Shown here: positions 18,026 through 51,035 of the stretch, one piece after another
Numbering within the stretch: the stretch's first letter is position 1
Layout: every line of letters starts with the position of its first letter
Assembly: GCA_011526085.1 (NCBI GenBank)
Contig: WYBC01000038.1
Location: 62,001 to 126,000, forward strand
Direction of reading: 5' to 3'
Length of the DNA stretch: 64,000 bases
Source of the DNA: Lysobacter sp.
GTDB taxonomy: Bacteria > Pseudomonadota > Gammaproteobacteria > Xanthomonadales > Xanthomonadaceae
Translations under genes and position numbers: made by a program
The notes under the pieces: generated by a model
The model's input: the letters and a program-made list of their open reading frames with translations, nothing else
The model's database searches: none
What the model was told of the DNA's origin: nothing

Positions 18026-18406
18026 ATGACGCACCGCAGCCGCCTCGCCGGCTTCATCATCGACTGCCAGACCGACGACCTCGACACCGCCACCCGCTTC
18101 TGGAGCGGCGCGTTGGGCCTGCCCATCGGCGAGCTGTCGCCGGAGGAATCCGCGACCTACGCCAAGCTCGACGACGCGCCCGGCGACCTGCACATCGAAG
18201 TGCAGAAGGTGACGCACCCCTCGCGCGTGCACCTCGACATTGAGGCCGACGACGTCGATGCCGAAGTGCGGCGGCTCGAAGCGCTCGGCGCGAAACGCGT
18301 CGCCGCCGTGCACACCTGGGTGGTCATGGAAGCGCCCACCGGCCAACGCTTCTGCGTGGTGCGGATGAAACACCCGGAGCGCGGGGCGACGCCGAATGTC
18401 TGGTGA
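18026..18406 (+). CDS. VOC (glyoxalase/bleomycin-resistance) family protein
   Basis: A single-module VOC-fold protein, 126 aa. Typical features are the beta-strand FIIDCQTDDLDTATRFWSGALGLP, a helix, then the second half HLDIEADDVDAEVRRLEALGAKR and the final strand GQRFCVVRMKHP. Metal ligands are not clear, so enzyme, binding protein or resistance protein cannot be told apart. It is the last plus-strand gene before the convergent bpX6 gene. Confidence 0.75.
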   Translation: MTHRSRLAGFIIDCQTDDLDTATRFWSGALGLPIGELSPEESATYAKLDDAPGDLHIEVQKVTHPSRVHLDIEADDVDAEVRRLEALGAKRVAAVHTWVVMEAPTGQRFCVVRMKHPERGATPNVW

Positions 18407-18452: not shown

Positions 18453-21263
18453 TCAGCAGAGACTGAACGCCGTCACCGTCTCGCGATCGGCATGGATGTC
18501 CAGCATCCGGCCCGCGTCGTCGAAGAACACCAGATGCCCGTCGCTTTCGCGGAACTGCGGCGTGGCGCCGGCGGGCCAGTCCACCGTCGCCAGGGTGTCG
18601 CCGTCGGTCATGCGGCAGACCGCGACATGGGTCCGGTCCGGCGTGGACACGGTCACTATCAGGCCTTCTTGTCGCGCGGCACGGCAGACGATGCCGATCT
18701 GTTCCGCAGAGACGTGGCCGAAGCTGCGGCCGTCGCCCGCGGCGATCTCGATTTCGCGTCGCCGGCTTTGGGTGTCGAACGACACATGCAGGCGGGTTTC
18801 GCTCAGCGATTCGAGCATGGGTTGGCAGACACGTCCGTAGGGCAGCAGCAGGCACGGCCGCTGCGGGTCGAGCTTCACGATTTCGCGGCTGGCCAGCCGT
18901 CGCGCCGGCAGGTGGTAAGTCCAGTGCTCGAAACCCAGCGGCGTGCGCATCAGATAAAGCTCGTACTGCGCGTCGTGGCGCGCCGCGACCAGCGGGCCGG
19001 GCAGATCGCCGACGTGCCAGATCACCTCGCGCAGCGACTTCGCGGTGTCGATCACCAGGATCCGGTTGTCGGCGACCACGCTCCATGCCGCACCGTCGAA
19101 GCGCGACGCGTGCGCATCCGCGCGCAGCGAGCCCAGATCGGCGACCGTCCGTCGCACCAGATCGAGCCGGCTCACCCGCGACAGCGTTTCGCGCCTCGCC
19201 ACCGCCAGCGCGACCAGGCCGTTGTCCGCGATCACCAGTGTTTCCGCGGGCGTCGCATAGCGCTGCTGCACCTGGCCGCGCGCATCCACCACCGCCACGC
19301 CGGCTTCGCCGAGCGCGATCAGGTAGCGCCGCTCCGGCAGCGGCGCGACATCGTGGATGGCCATCAGTCCCGCCGCGGGCGCTGCGAACGCGCGTGCCGA
19401 TCTGCGTTCCCACAGCGACGTGCGCTGCGACGCGGGCGGTAGCGACCATGCCGGCAGATCGGCCTTGAGATACGGATCGCCGCCGAGGCTCAGCAGTTTG
19501 TTGAGTCTGGATTTGCCGAGCAGATTGCGTCCGGCCGCGCGATCGCCCGCGATCGCCGGCAGCAGCGCGTTGACGATCGCGGCGATCGCCGGCGTGCGCT
19601 GCGGCGCGGTCAGCAATGCTTCGGCCAGCGCGGAGCGCGCCTCGGTGGCGGCCTCGGCATCGGCGGGATCGTCACCCGGCCGCGCCAGCGCGCGGATGCG
19701 ATCGCCATGGCGTTCCAGGGTGTCCGGCAGCCGTTCGGCGCGACGCACCAGCGCGCGCGCCGACAGCGTTTCGCCGGCATCCTCGGCGATGCGCAGCCAT
19801 TCGATGGCCAGCGCGCGTGCTTCGGGCAGCGGCCATACCGCGTCCATCGCCGCCAGCCACTCGCCCCGATCCGCCAGCGATTCGCCCCACAGCAGGCGCA
19901 GTTTCCGCGCCTGTTCCGGATGGCTCTGCTCCATGGCATGCACCGCGGAGGCGAACGCGCCGTCGCGGCGCGCGATCTGCACCGCGCGGGTCCAATCGCC
20001 TGCGAGCAGCAGCAGCCGCACCGTCGTGGCCGCCGGCATGTCCCAGGCCAACGACAGCTCCGCCGCCTGCGCGTGCCGGTCGTGGCGCTCCAGATAGTCC
20101 AGGCATTCCTGGCGCGCGTTCAGCAGTTCGCCGAGCACGAACACCGCTTCGTCGATGCGGCCCTCGCGATCCAGCCGCTCGAAACTGCGGCGATACATCT
20201 CGCGCAGATGCGCGCGCACCATCTCGTCGAGATGCACGTTCACGCTGGGGCCGGCGTCGGTGCCCAGGCGCAGGTCGCCGCGACGCCCCGGCGTGCCGAA
20301 AGCCTGTCCCAGCGAATCGCCGGTGGCGTCGATCGGCAGCGCATGGCGCAGCGCTTCGCCGAGATCGCCGTCCTCGAAACGCTTCATCATCCGCCGCAGA
20401 TACGCGCCCTGGCGCCAGCCGATCAGGCGCGACGCGCGGGTGGCGATGGCCAGCCGGGTCAGCGCGTCGCGCAGCGCCGAGGGCGGCGTCGGCGCGCGCC
20501 GGGCCGGCAGGCCGTCGCCTGCGGCGACACCGTGCCCCGACGCGCCTTTGCCGGGCATGCCGTGCGCACCGCTGCCGAGCCAGCGCAGCACGCGACCGAA
20601 CAGATCCTCGCCCGTGCGCCGGCCGTCGGCGGCCGCGGTCGGCGTGCGCGTGCGCGTGCGTGCGTCGGCGACGATCTGTTTCAGGAACTGTTCGCGCTCT
20701 TCGCTGGGTGGCGGAATGCGGTCGCCCAGCACTTCGCGCACGCCCTTGCCGCGCAGGACCGGCAGCGCCGGGGGCGTGAGGGTCACGCTGCAGTCGAAGG
20801 TGTCGTGCAGCGTGAAATCGCCGATCTCGACCCAGACCGAGAGATCCAGCGGCACGCCGTCGGCGAGGCGCAGTCCGCAGGGACGCGCGCCGCGCACCAG
20901 CACCAGATCGAAGCCGCGCACGCGCTGCAGCTCGTCCGCGGCCAGCGGCGCGCTGCCGAGAGGGCCCTGCGCGCCGGCATCGTGTTGACTCGAATCCTGC
21001 CGCAGCGCGCACAGCGCCAGCCCGGGCAACGTCGCGCAGTCGGCGAGCGTCGCCTGCGGAAAGCGCAACAGGTCGCCATCGGCAAACCGCAGCGCCTGCG
21101 CGCCGCTGCGCCACGCGCCGAGCATGCGCGCCGCGCGTGCGGCCTCGTCGAAGCGCGCGGCGTCGAACCACAGCGCCGCGACCGGTTGCACGCCGCGCCA
21201 CAGCGGCAGGCGCACCGCGTCGTCGTTCGCGACCGCGTCGATGGCGTCGGCGTCAGTCCGCAT
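18453..21263 (-). CDS. bpX6-type beta-propeller component of a MoxR/vWA/beta-propeller ternary system
   Basis: 936 aa. The N-terminal part (LPLWRGVQPVAALWFDAARFDEAARAARMLG and RFPQATLADCATLPGLALC) matches what I recall as the bpX6 domain of the MoxR-vWA-beta-propeller ternary systems. A long helical, Ala/Arg-rich middle (residues about 270-600) reads as tandem helical hairpins (ELLNARQECLDYLERHDRHAQAAELSLAWD). The C-terminal 320 residues show beta-propeller blades with repeated strands such as ERRYLIALGEAGVAVVDARG. No signal peptide or membrane span. It overlaps the upstream gene by 11 bases and is the last gene of the operon. Confidence 0.7.
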   Translation of the reverse strand: MRTDADAIDAVANDDAVRLPLWRGVQPVAALWFDAARFDEAARAARMLGAWRSGAQALRFADGDLLRFPQATLADCATLPGLALCALRQDSSQHDAGAQGPLGSAPLAADELQRVRGFDLVLVRGARPCGLRLADGVPLDLSVWVEIGDFTLHDTFDCSVTLTPPALPVLRGKGVREVLGDRIPPPSEEREQFLKQIVADARTRTRTPTAAADGRRTGEDLFGRVLRWLGSGAHGMPGKGASGHGVAAGDGLPARRAPTPPSALRDALTRLAIATRASRLIGWRQGAYLRRMMKRFEDGDLGEALRHALPIDATGDSLGQAFGTPGRRGDLRLGTDAGPSVNVHLDEMVRAHLREMYRRSFERLDREGRIDEAVFVLGELLNARQECLDYLERHDRHAQAAELSLAWDMPAATTVRLLLLAGDWTRAVQIARRDGAFASAVHAMEQSHPEQARKLRLLWGESLADRGEWLAAMDAVWPLPEARALAIEWLRIAEDAGETLSARALVRRAERLPDTLERHGDRIRALARPGDDPADAEAATEARSALAEALLTAPQRTPAIAAIVNALLPAIAGDRAAGRNLLGKSRLNKLLSLGGDPYLKADLPAWSLPPASQRTSLWERRSARAFAAPAAGLMAIHDVAPLPERRYLIALGEAGVAVVDARGQVQQRYATPAETLVIADNGLVALAVARRETLSRVSRLDLVRRTVADLGSLRADAHASRFDGAAWSVVADNRILVIDTAKSLREVIWHVGDLPGPLVAARHDAQYELYLMRTPLGFEHWTYHLPARRLASREIVKLDPQRPCLLLPYGRVCQPMLESLSETRLHVSFDTQSRRREIEIAAGDGRSFGHVSAEQIGIVCRAARQEGLIVTVSTPDRTHVAVCRMTDGDTLATVDWPAGATPQFRESDGHLVFFDDAGRMLDIHADRETVTAFSLC

Positions 21264-23139
21264 CCAGCACCTCGCCCTCGCCGTTCCACGCCATCGGGCG
21301 CTGGCCGCCGGGCGTGATCACCACCAGCCGCCGATGTTCGGTCACCGCCGCCACCACGTCGCAATCGCTGCCCACGCCGACCGTCGCGATCGGCACGTCG
21401 GCGTGATACAGCAGCGATTGTTCGTCCGCGCCGATCAGCATCAGCCGGCGCCGGTCCGGCGACAGCGCAACCAGACCGTGATCGGCGCTTCCTGGCCATT
21501 GCACCAGGCCGAACACCTGCCACTTCGCGCCGACCGCGATCCGCACCTGCCTGCAGATGTTGCCGTAGCCGCGGCGCTCGAAGACCATCCATGCGCCGCC
21601 GTCGCCGCTGCCGTGTTCCGGGATGCACCAGGCGCCGGACCAGTTCACGTTGCCGCCGCGCGCGCCCGACGCGATGTTGCCGTGGATCCAGGTCCGCACC
21701 GGGCGTCGTGGGGCCTCGCCTTCGCCGATCACGCGATCCACGGTGGTGAAGCGATCGTGCAGCACCAGTTCCATGCGCTGGCGACCGTAGCGGACGTAGA
21801 CGAGGCGTTCGCCGTCCGCGCGCGCGATCGCCAGGACGTCGTGCTCGAACACCTCGTGCGCCGACGGCGTGCCCTGGCCGCGCGCGGGATCGCCGCGCCA
21901 GCGCAACAGATGCCCGGCGCCGTCGAGCACGTAGACATCGTGCGGCTTGCGCGTGCCGGTGAGCCACACGCAGGGGCGCCAGTGCGCCTGTCCCGGTGGT
22001 GCCTGGAACTCGCGGTTGTCGGGGCGGACGCGGGTGCGGAAACCCTCGAAATTCCAGAAATGCAGATGCTCCCGGTCGGCGATGATGCCCGCGAAATGTT
22101 TCGTGCCCAGCGCGGCGCACAGCAGCTCGCGGCCGCGCGTCCACGCCATCGATCGCGCACCGGTCCGCACCTCGCCTTCGTGTCGCGGCAACGTGTAGAG
22201 CATCGCCATGCTTTCGTCGAGCAGCGGCACCGCGATGCGTTCGCCGCCGGGTCCGATCAACGGCGGCTGGCGCAACGACAGCCGCGCGCCCTGCGCCTCT
22301 TCTTCGACCGGCACCGGCGTCACCTCGAACGCGAACTGGCCGCGCAGCAGTTTCGCCGCCGCGCCGGTCGGCGGCAGCGGCAGGGCCACGTCGCGACGGC
22401 CGCCGGGTCCGGCGATCGCCACCGCCAGCGCGCCCAGCCATTCGCGACGGATGTCGACGCGATGGGTGAAACCGTCGCGATCGTGCGCGGCGTCCGCGGT
22501 GTCGCCGATCCGCCAGCATTCGCCGTGGCCGTGGCGGTCGCCGGCCAGCGCCGCGCGCCACGCCGTCGTGGCCGCCGCATCCGCATGGACCAGCGTGCGC
22601 CGCGCCAGGAACGCCTTCAGCCGCTGCGGGCTTTCCGCGGGATGCAGTTCCGTCGGTTCGGCCAGCGTGCCCCAGCGGAATTCCAGGCCGGCCGCTTCCG
22701 CGCGCCGTGCGAGCAGGATCCACAGCGCGACCTGCACCAGCCGCGGTGCGCCCAGCTGCGCCGGACCGGTGTCGAACAGCGCCACGATCCGCGCATCGGC
22801 CTTGCGCACTTCGCGGCGCGGCGACAGGAACAGATGCTCGCCGCTGCTCGCGCGGCGCAGGAATTCGTCCGGTGCCGCGTCGGCCACGGCCCATTCGCTG
22901 AGCAGCAACCGGTGGTACGGGCCGCGTCGCCGCAGATCGTCGATCCCGACCGGTTCCTCGTCGCCGCGCAGCCGCGGCCCGCGGAACGCGCCGAGCGCGG
23001 CCTCCAGTCGCGGCAGCAGATCGCCCATCGCGGCGATCTGTTCCGGCGACAGCCATTCCAGCCATGGTCGCCACGGGCGCAGCGCGGCCGGCAACGCCAC
23101 CGGCGCGGGCGCGGGCAGCTGTTTGCGCGCATCGCTCAT
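21253..23139 (-). CDS. vWA-like/beta-propeller protein of the ternary system (628 aa)
   Basis: The middle component. Residues 100-160 look like a von Willebrand A fold (DARIVALFDTGPAQLG, then a long helix LVQVALWILLARRAEAAG), but the MIDAS motif is degenerate: DTGPA (123-127) replaces DxSxS. Residues from about 270 onward form beta-propeller blades with Trp- and Gly-rich strands (RWRGDPARGQG, MAWNGEGEVLDAD at the end). Cytoplasmic, no signal. The ATG overlaps the bpX5 stop (ATGA) and its end overlaps the next gene by 11 bases, so translation is coupled along the set. Confidence 0.7.
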   Translation of the reverse strand: MSDARKQLPAPAPVALPAALRPWRPWLEWLSPEQIAAMGDLLPRLEAALGAFRGPRLRGDEEPVGIDDLRRRGPYHRLLLSEWAVADAAPDEFLRRASSGEHLFLSPRREVRKADARIVALFDTGPAQLGAPRLVQVALWILLARRAEAAGLEFRWGTLAEPTELHPAESPQRLKAFLARRTLVHADAAATTAWRAALAGDRHGHGECWRIGDTADAAHDRDGFTHRVDIRREWLGALAVAIAGPGGRRDVALPLPPTGAAAKLLRGQFAFEVTPVPVEEEAQGARLSLRQPPLIGPGGERIAVPLLDESMAMLYTLPRHEGEVRTGARSMAWTRGRELLCAALGTKHFAGIIADREHLHFWNFEGFRTRVRPDNREFQAPPGQAHWRPCVWLTGTRKPHDVYVLDGAGHLLRWRGDPARGQGTPSAHEVFEHDVLAIARADGERLVYVRYGRQRMELVLHDRFTTVDRVIGEGEAPRRPVRTWIHGNIASGARGGNVNWSGAWCIPEHGSGDGGAWMVFERRGYGNICRQVRIAVGAKWQVFGLVQWPGSADHGLVALSPDRRRLMLIGADEQSLLYHADVPIATVGVGSDCDVVAAVTEHRRLVVITPGGQRPMAWNGEGEVLDAD

Positions 23140-23570
23140 GACGCGTTCCAGTGCGCGGCGATCCGCGCCAGCACCGCGGTATCCGCCGGCAGCAACCGGT
23201 GCAGCGGCACCAGTTGCGCGGGATCGGGCCAGAGCAGCAGCGGCTTCTGCGCATGCCTGCGCGCGATCGCCGCCGCCAGCAGATCCAGCGCGATGTCGGG
23301 CCGTTGCAGCGTCGGCAGCCACAGCGTCGGCGCATCGGCGCGCGGTGCGGCGTAACGCGCGCCCGCCACCCAGGGCAGGGCATCGGCGGGGCCGGTCAAC
23401 AGCAGCAGATCCTGGTGCGCGGTGATCTGCCACGGCACCGCCGCCTGCCGGCCCTCGCATGCGATCGCCGCCGCATGCGCCTTCGCGAACAGCGCGCGCG
23501 CCACCGCGCCGCAGCCGACCACGCCGGTCGCGCTCGGCACATCGGTTTCCTCGCGCCAGCGCCAGCGCAT
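23136..23570 (-). CDS. bpX5-type component of the ternary system (144 aa)
   Basis: A small protein between the MoxR ATPase and the vWA-like gene. It has a short N-terminal Gly-rich segment (GVVGCGAVARALFAKAHAAAIACEGRQ) and an alternating alpha/beta core (LLLLTGPADALPWVAGARYAAP, LWLPTLQRPDIALDLLAAAIARR). I recall bpX5 as the matching family from the MoxR/bpX systems; the match is by gene order and sequence flavour, not by search. It starts 14 bases after the MoxR stop and its own stop overlaps the next start. Confidence 0.6.
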   Translation of the reverse strand: MRWRWREETDVPSATGVVGCGAVARALFAKAHAAAIACEGRQAAVPWQITAHQDLLLLTGPADALPWVAGARYAAPRADAPTLWLPTLQRPDIALDLLAAAIARRHAQKPLLLWPDPAQLVPLHRLLPADTAVLARIAAHWNAS

Positions 23571-23584
23571 CGCCGCGGCGTCGC

Positions 23585-24712
23585 TCAATCCGCGGCCGAC
23601 GCCACCGCCGCCAGTCGCGCGCGGGTCTCGGCCAGCGCGGACGGCAAGGCGTCGGTGGCGAAGTTCGCGTCGATCTCGCGCAGCAGCGCTTCGGCGAGGG
23701 TCGCTTTCACCGTGGCTGCGTGATCGCCGTCGAGACAGTCGCGCGCGGCTTCGATCAGGCGCGACACCCGCGACATCGGCTGCAGCGTCGCCTGTTCCAC
23801 CGCCGCGTGCAGGGTCGGATGCGCCGCCACCGCCAGGCGGTCGCGCAGCGCTTCGCGCGCGCTCAGCTGGCTCTGCTGGGTCGGCATCACGTAGAACAGC
23901 GGCCACAGATCGGCTTCGGTGGCGCGCGTGCGTCCGGCCAGCACGGTCGCCGCGGCCACCAGCCGCTGCGCCTTCACGATCCGCCGGTCCGACAGCCCCA
24001 GTCCCGCCGCACGCAGCTGGCGCACGGCCGCGGCCAGCGCGCCGCGCGCGTCGTCCATCGCCACCGTGGCCACCGCATCGCACAGCGCACCCAACTGCGA
24101 CAGATCGGCGCAGGGCGCGGTCGGCACGCGCTCGCTGTTCCAGCCGCCGCGCAGCAACGCTTCCAGCTGGTTGTCCGGCACCGGTTCCACGAACAGATGC
24201 AGCAGGAAGCGGTCGGCGAACGCGGCCAGCGACTCGTCGTCCGGCAATGCGTTCGCCGCGCCCACGCACACCCGCAGCGGACACTGGTGCACGGTCTGGC
24301 CGCGGCGGAAGCGGCGTTCGTTGAGGATGCCCAGCAGCGTGTTCAACACCGCGGTCGAACCGAGGAACACTTCGTCGAGGAACACCACATCCGCTTCCGG
24401 CAGCATGCCGGTCACGTCGGTTTCCACCACGCCCTCGCGCAGCTTGCGCAGGTCCACCGGCCCGAACAGTTCCGAAGGCTCGGTGAAGCGCCCCAGCAGA
24501 TATTCGAAATAGCGTCCGCCCAGCGCGCCCGCGACCCGGCGCACGATCGCGCTCTTCGCGGTACCCGGCGGGCCGATCACCAGCAGATGTTCCTGCGCCA
24601 CCGCCGCCAGCACGATCAGTTCGGCCAGCTGTTCGCGGCCGACCATGCCGCGGGTGGCGGTCTGCACCACCTCGCGCAAGCGTGCGGCGGTGTCGGAAAG
24701 GGATGCGGTCAT
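23585..24712 (-). CDS. moxR: MoxR-type AAA+ ATPase of the ternary system
   Basis: An AAA+ ATPase of the MoxR family, thought to act as a remodelling chaperone. Walker A is GPPGTAKS (47-54), Walker B VVFLDE (109-114), and sensor/arginine-finger regions follow (NERRFRRG, AFADRFLLHLFVEPV). The C-terminal 130 residues form the helical lid. Length 375 aa is somewhat above classic MoxR (about 330). Genes for bpX5, the vWA-like and the bpX6 protein follow directly, so this is the motor of that set. Confidence 0.88.
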   Translation of the reverse strand: MTASLSDTAARLREVVQTATRGMVGREQLAELIVLAAVAQEHLLVIGPPGTAKSAIVRRVAGALGGRYFEYLLGRFTEPSELFGPVDLRKLREGVVETDVTGMLPEADVVFLDEVFLGSTAVLNTLLGILNERRFRRGQTVHQCPLRVCVGAANALPDDESLAAFADRFLLHLFVEPVPDNQLEALLRGGWNSERVPTAPCADLSQLGALCDAVATVAMDDARGALAAAVRQLRAAGLGLSDRRIVKAQRLVAAATVLAGRTRATEADLWPLFYVMPTQQSQLSAREALRDRLAVAAHPTLHAAVEQATLQPMSRVSRLIEAARDCLDGDHAATVKATLAEALLREIDANFATDALPSALAETRARLAAVASAAD

Positions 24713-24761: not shown

Positions 24762-25073
24762 TCAGCCGCGCCGGCGCAGCCATGCCCGGCGCACGTAGAA
24801 CGCCAGCGTCATCGCCGCCAGCCACACGCCGTAACCGACCGAGGTTGCCAGTACCTGCGGCCACATGTGGCCGTGCCGACGGTCCGCGATCTCCATCGAC
24901 CAGTGCATCGACAGCAGGAACGCGGCCGTCGCGAGCGCCAGTGCGCCCAGGTCGAACACGATCCGCGCGGCGGGGCGCGGTCGGCGCGGGTAGAACCAGT
25001 ACAGCGCGCCGAGGATCAGGAACCACGGCAGGAACAGGATCAGGGCGAGGTTGAGTTCGACGGTGGGGTGCAT
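24762..25073 (-). CDS. Small membrane protein between trpS and moxR (103 aa)
   Basis: Three transmembrane segments are seen, at about residues 8-26, 38-56 and 72-92, with basic loops (RRPRPAAR, RRAWLRRRG) that place the C-terminus inside. No known family. It begins 13 bases after the trpS stop and ends 49 bases before moxR, so it is likely cotranscribed with both, but nothing shows that it belongs to the ternary system. Confidence 0.65.
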   Translation of the reverse strand: MHPTVELNLALILFLPWFLILGALYWFYPRRPRPAARIVFDLGALALATAAFLLSMHWSMEIADRRHGHMWPQVLATSVGYGVWLAAMTLAFYVRRAWLRRRG

Positions 25074-44241: not shown

Positions 44242-44724
44242 ATGAGCAATGGCAATGTGATCACGGAAGCGCTTTCCGACGCCGCCGAAGCGGTGGCGGA
44301 CAAGGCCAAGGAAGTCGGCGACGCGGTCGCCAACACCAAGGCCGGAAAAGCGGTGAGCAAGGCCGTCGGCAAGGCGAAGAAGTCCGCGGCCAAGGCCCGC
44401 AAGAAGGCCGGCAAGGTCGTCGACGACGCCAAGGCCAAGGCCGCATCCGCGGTGAAGACGGTGAAGGCCAAGGTCGCCGGCGGCAAGACGACCGCGAAGA
44501 AGGCCGCCAAGAAGGTCGCGAAGAAGGCCGCCGCCAAGAAGACTGCGGTGAAGAAGGCGGTCAAGAAGGCCGCGGCGAAGAAACCGGCCGCGAAGAAGGC
44601 CGCTGCCAGGAAGACGGTGAAGAAGGCGCCGGCGAAGAAGGTCGCCGCGAAAAAGACCGTGAAGAAGGCGGCGAAGAAAGCGGCACCGAAGAAAGCCGCG
44701 AAGAAGGCCGTGAAGAAGAAGTAA
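44242..44724 (+). CDS. Histone H1-like Lys/Ala-rich DNA-binding protein (160 aa)
   Basis: About half the residues are Lys or Ala. Residues 1-35 form an amphipathic helix (ITEALSDAAEAVADKAKEVG) and the rest repeats units such as KKAAKKV and KKAVKKA, as in AlgP/HC2-type H1-like proteins. These condense DNA and alter transcription. It has a GAGGAACC ribosome site. Its place between the two halves of the ribonucleotide reductase is notable. Frame slips within the AAG repeats could change length. Confidence 0.82.
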   Translation: MSNGNVITEALSDAAEAVADKAKEVGDAVANTKAGKAVSKAVGKAKKSAAKARKKAGKVVDDAKAKAASAVKTVKAKVAGGKTTAKKAAKKVAKKAAAKKTAVKKAVKKAAAKKPAAKKAAARKTVKKAPAKKVAAKKTVKKAAKKAAPKKAAKKAVKKK

Positions 44725-45743: not shown

Positions 45744-46586
45744 ATGACAAGTAACTTTAAGCGAAGGATTGTCGCGGTCTTAGTGCTTTCACTGGCGCTG
45801 GGGCATTACCTTTTTAAGTCTATTTTCTTCATTCTTTGGTTGCTCCTCGTGCTTTTGGTGTTGGCGTCGTTGGCTCACAATTTGGGTTTTTTCGATTTCG
45901 GTAAATTCAATTTGCCACTATCAAAAATCGAGATCGGGGATGGATTGACTGCCCTTGGAATTCTCTTTGCCTCTTACGGGGTAATGAGTGCGTGGAGAAG
46001 GCAAAAGCGCGAAGAATTGATGCTCCAGTCCGTAGAGGAAATCGATTTTTTCTTTCGTGATTTTGTCCGAACGACTAACAAAATGAGCGCTGAAGTTCGA
46101 GTGCTTGATCGATATTTAAAGGCTGTTCTCAAAGAACCTGATGGAGGAGATTGGATTTATTCAACAAGCCACATCCTCGGGTTAATTCCGCAGATCGAAG
46201 CGGCCAGAATATCAATTAATGAGATGGCCATTAGAGTGCATGATTTGGATGCGAGAGAAGCTCTAGTGGTCTGGTCAATACCTTTGGCAAAGATGCGTTT
46301 TGATCGGGCCATCGGTGCTCTTACGCAGTTGTCCGACATCTCTTTTTTGGATTTGCCTCTCGGCATGTCCTCGGCAGAAGATTTGAGGAATTGGATTTTG
46401 CATATTGGAATCGGCCGGGATGTTGAAAATGAATATGAGAAATTTATTGAGCGTTCAAGTGAGTTGACCGGTCAAATTGCAGGCGATATTGGGGGAATAC
46501 GAGCAGCCATCTTTGGTAGATACTTTCCTCCGACAATTGCTGGGGCAAAATCCATATTCGAAATCAAAGAAGAGGAAAGCGAGTAA
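45744..46586 (+). CDS. AT-rich membrane protein of unknown function (280 aa)
   Basis: Three hydrophobic segments are visible (about residues 9-26, 28-47 and 66-84), then a cytoplasmic helical region with EIDFFFRDFVRTTNKMSAEVR and SIPLAKMRFDRAIGAL. Two sampled 60-base lines have 43% and 48% G+C, against about 70% in neighbours, so the gene was probably acquired by transfer. No family is recognised. No ribosome site is obvious before the ATG at 45744. Confidence 0.65.
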   Translation: MTSNFKRRIVAVLVLSLALGHYLFKSIFFILWLLLVLLVLASLAHNLGFFDFGKFNLPLSKIEIGDGLTALGILFASYGVMSAWRRQKREELMLQSVEEIDFFFRDFVRTTNKMSAEVRVLDRYLKAVLKEPDGGDWIYSTSHILGLIPQIEAARISINEMAIRVHDLDAREALVVWSIPLAKMRFDRAIGALTQLSDISFLDLPLGMSSAEDLRNWILHIGIGRDVENEYEKFIERSSELTGQIAGDIGGIRAAIFGRYFPPTIAGAKSIFEIKEEESE

Positions 46587-46590
46587 CCCG

Positions 46591-46620
46591 GAAAAACAGG
46601 GGGCAGAGTAGACTTTCCTG
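46591..46620 (+). repeat. GTCGACTTT repeat, diverged copy
   Basis: AAAACAGGGGGCAGAGTAGACTTTCC, five bases after the AT-rich gene's stop; shares the frame ACAGGG..CAGAGT.GACTTTCC with the other copies. Confidence 0.5.
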
Positions 46621-46656
46621 AATGCGTACGGTCGCCTCGCAACCCGCCCTACGTAA

Positions 46657-46674
46657 GGCGGGTCTTGACCCGCC
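46657..46674 (+). repeat. REP-like palindrome
   Basis: GGCGGGT-CTTG-ACCCGCC, a 7-bp stem, close to the larger GTAG-headed pairs. Confidence 0.4.
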
Positions 46675-46758
46675 GTGGACGGAGCGGTGTCATGGGAGCC
46701 ACATGGATGAGGCGTGGGCCCAGTGAAATTCCTACGCTTGATAGCTAGAAAACAGCGC

Positions 46759-46899
46759 GTAGGGTGGGGTGAGCGCAGCGATGCCCACCCGAACCACCCG
46801 CACGCTTCAACATATCCCGCCGGCATGATCGCTCCGATCGATGCTTTCCTCGTCGGACAGGGCGGGATGGTGGGCATCGCTGCGCTCACCCCACCCTAC
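46759..46899 (+). repeat. Inverted REP pair (BIME-like), copy 1
   Basis: A 31-bp perfect inverted repeat: the left arm starts GTAGGGTGGGGTGAGCGCAG (46759-46789) and its exact complement lies at 46869-46899, with a 79-base centre. Each arm is itself hairpin-like (GGTGGG..CCCACC) beside a GTAG tetranucleotide. It differs from copy 2 (50313-50453) at one base. Confidence 0.8.
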
Positions 46900-46921
46900 G
46901 ACGGGTCGATGTGATCTGATG

Positions 46922-46950
46922 GTAAACACACGGGTCAGCGTCGACTTTCC
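46922..46950 (+). repeat. GTCGACTTT repeat
   Basis: AAACACACGGGTCAGCGTCGACTTTCC, about 20 bases after REP pair copy 1. Confidence 0.55.
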
Positions 46951-47030
46951 GCAATCCAATCCCTTTTGAAAACATCCTTGGTTCGACGATGGCAAACACC
47001 GCTGCAAGACGTGCGATATGGGCGTCAAAA

Positions 47031-47060
47031 GAACGCGGGTCAGAGTCGACTTTCGAAAAG
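47031..47060 (+). repeat. GTCGACTTT repeat
   Basis: GAACGCGGGTCAGAGTCGACTTTCG. Confidence 0.55.
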
Positions 47061-47064
47061 CACC

Positions 47065-47186
47065 GTAGGGCGGGCTCAAGCCCGCCACATGCGGTGGAAC
47101 GACCGCGTGCGACTCTGCTGGGCATTGCCTTCGATCGGCGTGCGGCATAAGGGCATGTCGAAATGGCGGGCTTGAGCCCGTCCTGC
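47065..47186 (+). repeat. Second GTAG-headed inverted palindrome pair
   Basis: GTAGGGCGGGCTCAAGCCCGCC (47065-47086) faces a near-complement (47165-47186), matching 19 of 22 bases, around 78 bases. Each half is a palindrome with GGCGGGCT/AGCCCGCC. REP-type, different stem from copy 1. Confidence 0.55.
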
Positions 47187-47424
47187 GGAGCTCGCTTTCG
47201 AGTCCGAGGTATCGGCGACGTGTCATAGCACATGAATCCATCGACCGAGGCGAATGCAATATCGAAATCGATATAGAAAATCTATAAATAATGTTTGTCT
47301 CAGATGCTGGATTGGCATCACTTGAATCAAAGGGATCAGACAGGGAATGATTGATCCTTGCGAACGGAGATATGATGTCCGCAGGACAAGCATGCCCGTT
47401 TGTCAGTCTAACAGGGGGCGAAAG

Positions 47425-48525
47425 ATGGGCGGTTACAGGAAGATTGCCTGCGCTTGTGCGTTGTTCGTCATCGGTATTTCGATCGCGACGCACGCATCCG
47501 CGCACAAGCTGGCGACGCAGTCGACGCCGGAAGAACGGAGATTGGCCGGCATCACCTCCGACATGCTGATCGACATGGAACGAAAGTTGGCGCAATGGTC
47601 GGTGTCGGCCTTCACCGAGCCGGTGCATGAAGAAATCACCAATCGAATCTACGGGTGCAACGGCGACGTCTGCGCCGGCAGCGTCGCGACCACGGCTCCG
47701 GTTCCGGTACTCGCTGGTGTGCGCTGGAACGACGATCCGCCGTTCCGGATGACATCACGGCAGTCGAGAAGCTCCAAGTGCAAGACCCAGGAGACGATCC
47801 GATTCGAAACGCAGCCGGGCTGCTGGGTGGCGTTGTTCCTCGACGCCAACAAGGGGGCTGCGAAAGGCGACGCGTACGGTCCAGATCACGCGATGCTCTA
47901 CAGATCGCATTTCGGCGATCTGCAATATCTGCATTCGATGGCGTCCGGCGATGGCGAGCCTGCCGAAAAGACAAAAGCAAAGTTGATGGACTGGTTCGAG
48001 TTCACGTGGCGCGCGTCGCGCGGTGAGTACACGCTGGACACCCGTCTGAAGTCGATCGAGAATCCGACGGTCCAGGCCGCATACGGCCATGGCGAGTGGA
48101 GGTTGCTGGAGCTGTATACCCTCGGCGCCAGTGGCGGTTTGAGACGCTACGTGAACGATGTCGCCTTCGGATCCCTGCTGCATACCCTCCAGGACAGTTA
48201 TGCCGCAGGGCATGTGGATCGCGAGGAATCCACTGGGACAGGGGAGTGCCGCGTGCGCAATCTGAGCGTTGCGTCGCCCGGCGGGATCCTCGAATTCCAT
48301 GCCTACAACCACCAGAACCACAAGCAGCACGCGGAGGCAGATTCGCGGGTGTTCTTCATGCGTACATTCCAGTCCGACGGGAACGTCGTTGATGTCGGTC
48401 GTGTGCTCGTCAAAGCGAGGAGTCAGAACATTCCTTGGGATGAGATGGCGCCGTTCTTCGACTGCGTGTTCACATTGAGAAAGCCGCAAGCGCTTGCCGG
48501 GCCCGGCGACTTCGTCGCCCGATAA
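47425..48525 (+). CDS. Exported protein with possible zinc-His motifs (366 aa)
   Basis: The signal peptide (MGGYRKIACACALFVIGISIATHASAHK) starts at ATG 47425 with an AGGGGG site; an upstream in-frame ATG at 47347 is unlikely. Histidine-rich patches (HEEITNRIYGC, LLHTLQDSYAAGHVDRE, EFHAYNHQNHKQHAEAD) recall the zinc sites of bacterial phospholipase C/S1-P1 nuclease folds, but the match is weak. Four or more cysteines suggest disulfides. It may be a secreted hydrolase. Unrecognised otherwise. Confidence 0.55.
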   Translation: MGGYRKIACACALFVIGISIATHASAHKLATQSTPEERRLAGITSDMLIDMERKLAQWSVSAFTEPVHEEITNRIYGCNGDVCAGSVATTAPVPVLAGVRWNDDPPFRMTSRQSRSSKCKTQETIRFETQPGCWVALFLDANKGAAKGDAYGPDHAMLYRSHFGDLQYLHSMASGDGEPAEKTKAKLMDWFEFTWRASRGEYTLDTRLKSIENPTVQAAYGHGEWRLLELYTLGASGGLRRYVNDVAFGSLLHTLQDSYAAGHVDREESTGTGECRVRNLSVASPGGILEFHAYNHQNHKQHAEADSRVFFMRTFQSDGNVVDVGRVLVKARSQNIPWDEMAPFFDCVFTLRKPQALAGPGDFVAR

Positions 48526-48581
48526 GAAAAACACGCGTCAGAGTCGACTTTTCATGGAAAACGAGAGTCAGAGTCGACTTT
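48526..48581 (+). repeat. GTCGACTTT repeats, tandem pair
   Basis: Two copies with GTCGAC cores 30 bases apart (48543 and 48573), just after the stop of the 366-aa gene. Confidence 0.55.
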
Positions 48582-48726
48582 GGCAACTTTGAATCGCGTA
48601 AGGGGTTCATGCGGTTGTAGGGTGTATCAAAGAAGCGTCGTACGAATTCTTCAGCATATCAAATGTCCGTGAACTGGTGCGACGCTTGATATGCAAAAAT
48701 CTCAGAGCAGATGAAGGGAGATCATC

Positions 48727-49416
48727 ATGATGCGGAGACTCATTATTTCGTTTTTGGTGCTGTCGCTCGTTGGGTGCGTGAGCACGAATGCCAATTACAG
48801 GCCAACCGCCATCGATATCAGCGAACCCCCTCTGGGACAGGTTGTGACTGCCGAGGTGGGAGGCACCATGCTGAGGCAAGGCAAATATGTCGAACACGAC
48901 GCAATCTATCTGCAGGAGACCGTGAAGGTTGGTGTCTTCGGCGCCTATATCTTTTCCCGCGGCTATTACCTCCGCGAAGGTGAAGACAGTAAGAACGAGT
49001 TCTATTATCCGGAAAACAGCCCGGAAGGCGGGCGCGTCGACAAAAGTGCTTTGGCCGATCCATACAAGACAATGATGGTGGTCAAAGGGCAGGACACGAT
49101 CTGCGGTGTTTCTGTCCTCAATGCGCGGGTGTGCGAAAAGAATGTCAGATTCGAGAGGGTCAGGCGGCCTGCGTTGGTTTCAGACGGTTTTCAACAGACC
49201 CTTCTGTACAGTGGGCGCATTGGCAACAAAATCAATATTTCCTACCGCGAGTTCTCCAATAACACCGCCCGGCCGGCTTTCAATAATGATGTGGAGTATG
49301 ATCTGGGCGAGTCGATGACGATTGGCTACAAGGGCGCAGAAATCGAAATCATCGAGGCTACGAACAGAATGATCAAATACAGAGTCATACGAAATTTCAA
49401 TCAAGCTGTTCAATGA
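48727..49416 (+). CDS. Lipoprotein of unknown function (229 aa)
   Basis: The signal peptide has the lipobox LVGC, giving a lipid-anchored Cys after about 17 residues. The mature part is beta-rich (YIFSRGYYLREGEDSKNEFYYP, VEYDLGESMTIGYKGAEIEIIE). No known family. ATG pair at 48727/48730; a GAAGGGAG site precedes. It lies in the accessory island, where base composition is more mixed than elsewhere. Confidence 0.6.
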   Translation: MMRRLIISFLVLSLVGCVSTNANYRPTAIDISEPPLGQVVTAEVGGTMLRQGKYVEHDAIYLQETVKVGVFGAYIFSRGYYLREGEDSKNEFYYPENSPEGGRVDKSALADPYKTMMVVKGQDTICGVSVLNARVCEKNVRFERVRRPALVSDGFQQTLLYSGRIGNKINISYREFSNNTARPAFNNDVEYDLGESMTIGYKGAEIEIIEATNRMIKYRVIRNFNQAVQ

Positions 49417-49554
49417 GCGCGTAAGTCCGCACGGTGGACTCGCGCGATGCATCGTAGAGGGGGTGCGCAGAAAACCCCGCCATTCTGCATCGGGCCCGCG
49501 CCGACCCTCAACGCAAGACAGCAACGGCCGCCCCATCGCGGCTGTTTGCTTTTT

Positions 49555-49583
49555 GGAAAAACACGGGTAAGCGTCGACTTTCC
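49555..49583 (+). repeat. GTCGACTTT repeat
   Basis: GGAAAAACACGGGTAAGCGTCGACTTTCC, 50 bases before the next gene's start. Confidence 0.55.
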
Positions 49584-49633
49584 ATGTGATGTGCCCTGCG
49601 ACGCTTTGGAATCGACGCCGAAGGAGGCATTGG

Positions 49634-50296
49634 ATGCGGCAGGAGTTGCTGACATACGCAGAAGTGGATCGACGCATTGAGGCGCTGCCTGAGGGACCGG
49701 TCGCCGCTATGCGTCGTCCGCCATGGATGGTGTGGCTGGATCGTCTGGGCTACGTTGGCGTGTTAGTGGGCCTTATGCCTGCCTTGATCGTCCAGTTTCT
49801 GAAGCCTGCTGCGTGGATGGTGTCTGTGGCTCTTGTCGGGCTGGCGCTAACTGCGGTTGGTTTCCTTCCCGTGCTCGTACGCGATCTGTCGGTACTGCTT
49901 CGGTCCATCGGCCGTGCTCGCGAAGAGTTCATTCGGCAATGGGATCACGATTTCGTCGCGTTCGAGGGCCTGCTGGCCTGGTTGACTGCATTCCCGCGCG
50001 ATGTACTGGAGCATCGGCTACGCTTCGCACAGGCCGCGCAAACGCGAATCGCCACCAAGATGGGTTTGATCTACGGCGGCGCGGATCGGCTGGGAATGGT
50101 CCCGCTGATCGCTGCGATGTATGTGCAGTTTGACGCCTTTTCGACGGTCGACTTCGATATACCGTTGTGGAAGATTTTTGTCGGTTTTTTCGCCTTGATT
50201 GTGTACGCTGCCGCGTTCCAGGTGTCTCGTGTGCGCCTGCGGCTGGAGTTACACGCCGCGCTGCTGACGGAGGCGCTCGAGAGAAAGTCCACGTAA
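49634..50296 (+). CDS. Membrane protein of unknown function (220 aa)
   Basis: Start ATG 49634 follows a near-perfect ribosome site, AAGGAGG, with 6-base spacing. Two hydrophobic pairs are visible: residues about 40-85 (WLDRLGYVGVLVGLMPALIV and the following span) and 165-200 (IFVGFFALIVYAAAF). The middle is cytoplasmic and helical. No family is recognised. The REP pair copy 2 begins 17 bases after the stop. Confidence 0.6.
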   Translation: MRQELLTYAEVDRRIEALPEGPVAAMRRPPWMVWLDRLGYVGVLVGLMPALIVQFLKPAAWMVSVALVGLALTAVGFLPVLVRDLSVLLRSIGRAREEFIRQWDHDFVAFEGLLAWLTAFPRDVLEHRLRFAQAAQTRIATKMGLIYGGADRLGMVPLIAAMYVQFDAFSTVDFDIPLWKIFVGFFALIVYAAAFQVSRVRLRLELHAALLTEALERKST

Positions 50297-50312: not shown

Positions 50313-50453
50313 GTAGGGTGGGGTGAGCGCAGCGATGCCCACCCGAACCACCCGCACGCTTCAACATATCCCGCCGGCTTGATCGCTCCGATCGATGCTT
50401 TCCTCGTCGGACAGGGCGGGATGGTGGGCATCGCTGCGCTCACCCCACCCTAC
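50313..50453 (+). repeat. Inverted REP pair (BIME-like), copy 2
   Basis: Same structure as 46759-46899: left arm 50313-50343, right arm 50423-50453, 141 bp, one base different in the centre. It ends 84 bases before the RAYT start codon. Confidence 0.8.
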
Positions 50454-50537
50454 CGTTGCGCCGGGTGGTGTTTTTCCTGCGGGGAAGGGCGGGGTTTTCC
50501 GATGGCGGCCGATGGTGGCGGGCGGCAGGCTTGCGGT

Positions 50538-51035
50538 ATGCCCGACTATCGACGCTTGTGGGTGCCCGGCGGCACCTATTTCTTCACGGTGAATCTGGCC
50601 GATCGTTCGCGTCGGCTATTGGTGGACAACATCGATGCCTTGCATATGGGCGTAGCGTCCGTGCGCGTCGCGCATCCATTCGAGACCGTCGCATGGTGCG
50701 TGTTGCCGGATCATCTGCATGTGGTCTGGACCTTGCCGCGTGGGGATGACGATTTCGCGACGCGCTGGATGCTGATCAAGGCGCAATTTTCACGTCGTAT
50801 CGAAAGCGGCGAACGGTTGTCGGCGTCGCGATGCAAGCATCGGGAACGCGGTATCTGGCAACGCCGCTTTTGGGAACACATGATCCGCGACGAACGCGAT
50901 CTGCGGAATCACATCGACTACATCCACTTCAATCCGGTGAAGCATGGCATGGTGGCGCGCGTCGCCGACTGGCCGTATTCGTCCTTCCATCGATTCGTGC
51001 GCCAGGGGCGATTGCCCGCGGACTGGACCGGATGA
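50538..51035 (+). CDS. REP-associated tyrosine transposase (RAYT)
   Basis: A 165-aa Y1-type HUH transposase. The start MPDYRRLWVPGGTYFFTVNL is the RAYT N-terminus. The metal-binding HUH is LPDHLHVVW with His59 and His61, and the catalytic Tyr128 lies in DYIHFNPVKHG. RAYTs are domesticated relatives of IS200/IS605 transposases that cut REP palindromes with a GTAG foot. A matching REP pair lies 84 bases upstream. An in-frame ATG at 50502 would add 12 residues. Confidence 0.9.
   Translation: MPDYRRLWVPGGTYFFTVNLADRSRRLLVDNIDALHMGVASVRVAHPFETVAWCVLPDHLHVVWTLPRGDDDFATRWMLIKAQFSRRIESGERLSASRCKHRERGIWQRRFWEHMIRDERDLRNHIDYIHFNPVKHGMVARVADWPYSSFHRFVRQGRLPADWTG

Follow-up and report, generated by a model that had tools for sequence, protein, structure and literature searches.

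What do four overlapping genes led by a MoxR ATPase do together, and why are all of them present in some bacteria and absent from close relatives? The genes lie on the minus strand of a 64,000-nucleotide stretch of Lysobacter sp. DNA (assembly GCA_011526085.1, contig WYBC01000038.1, positions 62,001 to 126,000 of the forward strand), which we call the window. Judged by its profile matches, the operon is a chromosomal member of the MoxR-vWA-beta-propeller ternary systems, in the bpX5/bpX6 class, whose 2020 prediction included no conventional effector. Our comparison narrows the question to a four-protein set with an apparently constant engine, variable propellers and an order that is fixed over several phyla; what is new is the presence or absence of the whole unit at fixed chromosomal sites, together with two apparent anchoring forms. 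We favor, with about even confidence, an ATP-driven remodeling complex with an accessory role in conflict or stress.

Identity of the four genes

The four minus-strand open reading frames (ORFs) were confirmed as genes for MoxR, bpX5, a 628-residue protein and a 936-residue bpX6 protein (Table 1), and the coordinates and overlaps given in a preliminary description of the sequence proved exact. The bpX5 gene and the gene for the 628-residue protein share 4 bases (23136-23139), and the latter shares 11 bases with the bpX6 gene (21253-21263). The MoxR and bpX5 genes overlap by 4 bases if bpX5 begins at its TTG codon and stand 14 bases apart if it begins at ATG; with ATG, bpX5 occupies 23136-23570, and most of 10 aligned relatives begin there (script-called starts).

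The names MoxR, bpX5 and bpX6 had been given in the preliminary description, and a hidden Markov model search of Pfam agrees with all three at a cut-off of 27 bits. MoxR matched PF20030 (bpMoxR; E = 1.4e-90, 302 bits), the small protein matched PF19921 (bpX5; E = 7.5e-40, 136 bits) and the 936-residue protein matched PF19922 (bpX6; E = 7.4e-49, 166 bits, residues 17-195), a domain found in 52 of 52 aligned bpX6 members. Taken alone, the bpMoxR model is non-specific: 12 of 14 control genomes contain a match above its threshold, against none for the bpX5 model. For this reason bpX5 and bpX6 are the specific marks of the class. MoxR has the intact Walker motifs attributed to it: its Walker A sequence GPPGTAKS recurs in 73 of the 76 relatives scored (GPPGTGKS in 3), and FLDE (residues 111-114), NALPDD, ADRF and SDRR are present.

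MoxR-vWA ternary systems have been predicted in four kinds, the fourth of which combines a vWA protein bearing a C-terminal propeller with a third protein whose N-terminal region varies and which also carries TPR-like helices and a propeller; this kind often has a GxxxTAKS P-loop, has no conventional effector and occurs in hosts including Pseudomonas and Xanthomonas (Kaur et al. 2020, PMC7159879). The window operon shares with this kind the MoxR family, the GxxxTAKS P-loop, a vWA-like protein with a predicted C-terminal propeller, a third protein with an N-terminal domain, helical repeats and a predicted propeller, and Xanthomonas and Pseudomonas among the hosts. It differs in that the propeller of the 628-residue protein spans about 340 residues in the model and aligns lengthwise with Hsv2 and other WD40-type propellers, against about four blades in the paper, that the window's bpX6 has no membrane segment, and that gene-wide selection is purifying here. 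The Pfam lists of the four proteins hold only bpMoxR, other AAA and P-loop families, bpX5, bpX6 and one sub-cut-off HTH match. They include no VMAP or inactive STAND protein, the library's content of VMAP and iSTAND models being unconfirmed. Neither the 936- nor the 628-residue protein has an AAA match in Pfam, so the third protein with two FtsH AAA domains of the FtsH ternary type was not found.

Table 1. Features of the operon and its borders, in window coordinates
Feature	Position	Strand	Basis
bpMoxR AAA+ ATPase, 375 residues	23585..24712	-	Pfam PF20030, RavA profile match
Walker A GPPGTAKS (residues 47-54), GxxxTAKS variant	24551..24574	-	Sequence motif
bpX5 small protein	23136..23588	-	Pfam PF19921; TTG start 23588 or ATG 23570
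628-residue vWA-like and predicted beta-propeller protein	21253..23139	-	Position, homology, AlphaFold2 model
FDTGPAQLG motif (residues 122-130), where MIDAS DxSxS is expected	22750..22776	-	Alignment
Predicted beta-propeller of 628-residue protein (residues 284-625)	21265..22290	-	VIA structure match
936-residue bpX6 protein	18453..21263	-	Pfam PF19922, AlphaFold2 model
Low-confidence linker of bpX6 (residues 196-262), predicted helix 220-230	20478..20678	-	Model; hydrophobic in other lineages
Alpha-helical solenoid (residues 347-602), most conserved part of bpX6	19458..20225	-	Model secondary structure, entropy
Predicted beta-propeller of bpX6 (residues 615-936)	18456..19421	-	VIA structure match
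Left border: m124, a small hydrophobic protein, behind trpS	24762..25073	-	Also in operon-free genus-mates
Right border: glyoxalase-like VOC gene	18026..18406	+	Present with or without operon

Structure models of the two large proteins

The 628-residue protein had zero Pfam match up to E = 10, and both large proteins were modeled with AlphaFold2, using alignments of 55 (628-residue family) and 52 (bpX6) sequences with the window included. Propellers, which the preliminary description had read in both proteins, are predicted in both models. The model of the 628-residue protein (predicted local distance difference test, pLDDT, 86.8) begins with helices, continues as a mixed region to about residue 265 and then forms the propeller, which lies C-terminal to the vWA-like region, as in the class. 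In VIA comparisons, this propeller matched that of Hsv2 (Z = 16.4, root mean square deviation (rmsd) 3.9, 268 aligned) and Pwp2 (5i2t, Z = 15.7); by sequence, the profile of the protein reaches Pwp2 only at E = 0.0013. We take the WD40-type propellers of this comparison to be seven-bladed.

The bpX6 model (pLDDT 86.4; predicted template modeling score, pTM, 0.75) runs from the Pfam lobe through a low-confidence linker and a helical solenoid to the propeller, matching the class's third component of variable N-terminal region, helices and propeller. Its propeller aligned with chain 6zqd_UA of the 90S pre-ribosome (Z = 17.9, rmsd 3.7, 269 aligned) and with Pwp2 (5i2t, Z = 16.2, rmsd 3.8, 262 aligned), and the bpX6 profile found no match by sequence among solved structures. 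Propellers filled the fold-search lists of both full-length models, so these comparisons bear almost entirely on that part.

Where the DxSxS motif of a metal-ion-dependent adhesion site (MIDAS) would be expected, the 628-residue family has FDxGPxQLG. Over 55 rows, window included, the motif is kept at F122 (52), D123 (52), G125 (55), P126 (52), Q128 (53), L129 (43) and G130 (55). DxSxS occurs in 0 of the 55 rows, and position 213 is Asp in 3. The vWA domains of such systems may lose one or both aspartates (Kaur et al. 2020, PMC7159879). The vWA-like label comes from the published class and is unconfirmed by sequence.

Apparent membrane-anchored and membrane-free forms of bpX6

A membrane segment is mentioned for the class, where it is not stated as required in the text cited here (Kaur et al. 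2020, PMC7159879). The window's bpX6 protein has zero 19-residue window with a hydrophobicity above 1.8. Among the 72 bpX6 proteins scored (window included), 41 have such a stretch within residues 150-330, and none of these 41 comes from Xanthomonadaceae. Those lacking it are the window's protein, the Xanthomonas, Lysobacter, Stenotrophomonas and Tahibacter members, Achromobacter, one Pseudomonas, one Massilia, Zooshikella and most deep-branching members.

Scored for a hairpin over windows of 17 residues, with thresholds of 1.9 for one stretch and 1.4 for a second, 71 proteins divide into 33 with two hydrophobic stretches, 9 with one and 29 with none. In the 33 with two stretches, lysine and arginine per 15 residues number 1.6 and 3.2 in the outer flanks versus 0.9 in the loop. 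Because the outer flanks are more positive than the loop, these segments probably form a hairpin whose two ends lie in the cytoplasm. The hairpin trait changes at least six times on the MoxR tree, and the operon family seems to exist in membrane-anchored and membrane-free forms.

Gene order across loci

We collected 80 loci from GTDB species genomes with the MoxR profile, leaving the partners out of the query. All four genes matched in identical order and strand at 72 of the 80 loci. At the other eight (L046, L078, L083, L117-L120 and L122; L numbers denote loci and G numbers genomes of this analysis), contig ends fall within the matched genes or at most about 100 bases from them. The genes are kept together. 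The preliminary description had named missing bpX or propeller matches, or a scattering of the genes in relatives, as grounds against it, and neither was observed. Overlapping starts occur at the three junctions in 52, 47 and 66 of 71 loci (script-chosen starts), the 66 being those of the vWA/bpX6 junction. The operon ranges from Lysobacter to Myxococcota, Acidobacteriota, Abditibacteriota and one Acidimicrobiaceae bin. A MoxR tree of 71 rows follows bacterial families, with 12 changes against a minimum of 11 and 7 rows ungrouped; its branches outside the main Pseudomonadota groups are long and uncertain.

A few loci depart from the pattern in detail. The copies are broken in Xanthomonas phaseoli (L057:10888-16061), where the bpX5, 628-residue and bpX6 genes are interrupted and the MoxR frame is open. 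Massilia frigida (L123:11541-15124) has two tandem genes of the 628-residue type between bpX5 and bpX6, and L085 is cut inside bpX6 by a contig end; these three loci count among the 72. L117 has a gap of 1.2 kb between MoxR and bpX5.

Constant and variable parts

Over 13 close pairs, the ratio of nonsynonymous to synonymous substitution rates (omega) was lowest for MoxR, the slowest gene (0.01-0.11), and reached 0.08-0.50 for bpX5, 0.08-0.25 for the 628-residue gene and 0.06-0.38 for bpX6. A bpX5 value of 0.98 belongs to the pair L072/L074, where the L074 copy is frameshifted. Positive selection was not found at gene level, omega lying below 1 in all 13 pairs. By segment, the C-terminal part of bpX6 reached 0.64-0.80 in three Xanthomonas pairs (0.80 in one), and the bpX6 linker reached 0.52 and had the highest nonsynonymous rate in many pairs. 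Column entropy had its minimum in the vWA-like N-terminal half of the 628-residue protein (1.23 bits), the minimum within bpX6 being that of its solenoid (1.73 bits); the highest values were those of the bpX6 linker (2.72 bits) and the propeller of the 628-residue protein (2.69 bits). These values suggest a constant engine with variable contact surfaces.

Presence, absence and chromosomal site

The operon is chromosomal, occupies the same site within each of two genera and is gained or lost whole. We found bpX5 in 10 of 198 family-sample genomes and in 5 of 369 class-sample genomes (4 above cut-off), the window's own genome being included in both. Among 11 genomes of the window's genus, the operon is present in five (G000, G061, G172, G199 and G200, the last with MoxR and bpX5 before the contig ends), absent from five (G013, G089, G137, G115 and G198) and undecidable in G189. 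Its site lies between trpS with m124 and the VOC gene; the distance from the m124 match to the VOC match is 28 bases in G013 and 22 in G137. Three of the five genus-mates that lack the operon also have m124 (all except G089 and G198), so m124 is outside the system. The VOC gene is not part of it either, occurring in all eight genus-mates whose fetched contig stretch reaches that far, whether or not they carry the operon.

A tree of five flanking proteins requires at least four changes of state over 10 genomes, a count that does not separate gain from loss. Without trpS, the flanking genes agree with the operon tree at weak support (49/33). Since the site is shared and the trees agree, the operon was more likely lost than gained within the window's genus. 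Horizontal transfer was considered for the genus pattern and set aside, the trpS-based conflict between trees being traced to the odd trpS of G061. That trpS (L022) groups with other genomes than its neighboring genes do, a sign of possible recombination beside the operon site in G061.

In Lysobacter, the operon adjoins one conserved 682-residue gene, probably for an M13-type peptidase, in 15 of 20 genomes; the other five have no operon. Beside the operon in this genus, and divergent from it, is a gene pair encoding a TPR protein and an AAA+ ATPase (L048:6908-9791, L050:8326-9693, L016-L019, L196-L211). The pair occurs in 13 of the 14 operon-bearing genomes that show that side, G173 having the operon without it, and in one of the five genomes without the operon; G116 is uncounted.

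At two operon-free sites in the window's genus we observed other genes. In G198 (L041:3873-4802), the site holds an HNH nuclease gene (Pfam HNH, E = 4.3e-10) with a resemblance to type IV restriction enzymes (PADLOC mREase_IV, 1.2e-18). In G115 (L036:9632-10999), it holds a weak X-Tfe-like gene (XVIPCD PF20410, E = 0.0015, 19.5 bits, under the cut-off of 24.9) behind a gene that by eye reads like a lipoprotein gene and has zero Pfam match. Antibacterial type IV effector-like genes appear abundant in the window's genus, with 17-26 XVIPCD matches per genome in 11 genomes. The occupants fit a site that swaps conflict genes, in two cases of which one is weak.

Operon remnants were also sought at the empty sites, with composition correction off, and the matches had E = 0.006 or worse, with one exception. 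The exception, a bpX6 match in G115 (E = 1.5e-6, residues 202-346, 32% over 156 columns), runs against the direction of the operon and antisense to the X-Tfe-like gene, and we take it as probably due to chance.

The patchiness of the operon and the occupants of its site bring in a first alternative, a defense system against phages or other bacteria in which bpX6 would sense or execute and the MoxR pair would set the threshold. Kaur et al. (2020, PMC7159879) propose much the same role in biological conflict for the class and report that it is over-represented in multicellular forms (44 of 118 organisms, P = 0.0094). In a Pseudomonas syringae clade, a single region of genome plasticity holds ravA, a bpX5 gene, a gene labeled 6ND4 and a bpX6 gene (PMC9677677). 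A different cluster, Arc2 of P. aeruginosa (PA4317-23), likewise joins a MoxR-like ATPase to a VWF protein, a pair that co-occurs in Xanthomonadaceae and Pseudomonadaceae; Arc2 differs in the other genes that surround its pair, and the protection it gives depends partly on the competitor's ColA toxin (PMC8926400). We regard defense as possible yet doubtful, since Pfam finds no effector domain, omega is below 1 for whole genes in 13 of 13 pairs, the MoxR tree is congruent with families and the Lysobacter site is fixed in 15 of 20 genomes. The abundance of X-Tfe domains in the window's genus makes a single one at the site weak evidence, and the flanking genes described next argue in the same direction.

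The neighbor set covered up to two genes per side at 37 loci (129 of 165 called), and its family tallies give the best 25 of 48 and 25 of 119 families. Among the families listed, LysR, beta-lactamase-fold, MFS, response-regulator and transport families lead in Pfam, and each PADLOC family at 1e-10 matches no more than two members, most of these families being generic (sigma-54 AAA, AAA and kinase-like). In general, these lists give no sign that the operon sits in a defense island. The listed flank families that loci share include no fifth conserved partner, the only steady neighbor pair being that of Lysobacter.

Relation to known MoxR machines

With a 12-sequence MoxR profile, RavA in the PDB was matched at E = 7.2e-47 over positions 3-272, and RavA structures were the only solved ones reached at 1e-6; the NCBIfam RavA model matched MoxR at E = 4.4e-47 with 161 bits against a cut-off of 681. 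The RavA-ViaA system of Escherichia coli resembles the window operon in pairing a MoxR ATPase, the closest solved structure by sequence, with a vWA-protein partner. It differs in that ViaA has two domains, a helical part and a VWA domain with a MIDAS motif, and in that the part of the source cited here mentions no propeller or bpX protein; RavA and ViaA act at the inner membrane (PMC9489729). NorQ-NorD is likewise a MoxR/vWA pair that remodels a partner, and it differs in having nitric oxide reductase as its client, with no propeller named in the cited part of the source (PMC13036017).

These pairs raise a second alternative, that the four proteins serve solely as a chaperone in the assembly of a respiratory or envelope complex and have no part in conflict. 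The RavA match, the purifying selection, the fixed sites within genera, the hydrophobic segments of many bpX6 proteins and the action of RavA and ViaA at the inner membrane would all suit such a chaperone. We consider it unlikely, because no client enzyme gene was seen traveling along, the listed flank families common to genera being generic, and because complete absence from close relatives argues against a need for it in a core complex.

Midasin (Mdn1) offers a more distant comparison. It differs from the operon in being one giant chain that is eukaryotic and acts on ribosome precursors; Rsa4 and Ytm1 carry WD40 propellers. The likeness lies in an AAA mechanoenzyme that pulls partners, Rsa4 and Ytm1, by its MIDAS domain (PMC8837202), and Kaur et al. 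place midasin in the MoxR clade (PMC7159879).

Proposed mechanism and its weighing

We now return to the ATP-driven remodeling complex that we favor, for which we infer ring assembly, docking, client and role as follows. By homology to RavA, bpMoxR would form an ATP-driven ring. The 628-residue protein would dock on this ring through its conserved N-terminal vWA-like half, as the NorQ/NorD and RavA/ViaA pairs suggest, and its fast-evolving propeller may hold a partner, with bpX5 as a small adaptor. Cycling of ATP would pull, twist or remodel the bpX6 solenoid-propeller scaffold, the object moved. In many lineages bpX6 would sit at the inner membrane through its predicted hairpin; in Xanthomonadaceae it would be soluble or peripheral. 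The four proteins would form one module, accessory because close relatives do without the operon, and probably protective in conflict or envelope stress. The absence of the whole unit and the other occupants of the site lean toward such an accessory protective role; purifying selection, fixed sites and plain neighbors lean the other way.

Several results weigh against the remodeling complex or its class assignment. The domain arrangement of the 628-residue model is unsure (pTM 0.62). A vWA family was found by Pfam in 0 of 55 members of that family, and hhalign, run on the region against vWA profiles built from related genomes, gave non-significant probabilities of 0.14-0.65%, where a control of one vWA profile against another gave 96.6%; after a stop filter, the templates held 3 of 6 CoxE-type sequences, 30 of VWA_2 type and a mixed set of 55. 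The preliminary description had read this protein as vWA-like with propeller blades; the propeller stands in the structure model and the vWA part finds no match by sequence. Pfam shows no conventional effector domain in the four proteins, and in PADLOC the matches of MoxR are weak and of generic AAA type (best E = 0.00075), the other proteins having no match at all. The 129 neighbors from 37 loci are mostly ordinary (metabolic, transport or regulatory) among the families listed, and a MoxR tree that follows families is unlike that of a freely moving defense system. In the open-access literature we found no experiment on the class, and the only description found is a prediction, which agrees with the earlier remark that its biochemistry is barely explored.

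A more specific proposal is tentative, and we think it rather improbable. It holds that the operon encodes a distinct MoxR machine in which the metal-dependent MIDAS of the vWA partner would be replaced by a conserved FDxGPxQLG docking motif, bpX6 would switch between membrane-hairpin and soluble forms, and the site in the window's genus would be a swap site for conflict modules. Such a machine would protect at the inner membrane face against injected toxins or phages with no toxic effector of its own. The set is minimal, is naturally absent from members of one genus and occurs in named hosts such as Lysobacter enzymogenes (L055), so its role is directly testable.

Other observations in the window

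A sigma-70 scan found no promoter, a terminator scan gave one terminator-like match against 1.9 expected, and Rfam matched nothing in the window. Most of the window has a GC content of about 0.65-0.74, but it is 0.54-0.56 between 46001 and 50000; three ORFs in this low-GC stretch (45744-50296), of 280, 392 and 236 residues, have no Pfam match at 0.001. The same holds for an ORF at 50379-51035, which presumably encodes a REP-associated tyrosine transposase. At 44242-44724 lies a gene for a 160-residue lysine- and alanine-rich protein, which we take to be histone H1-like.

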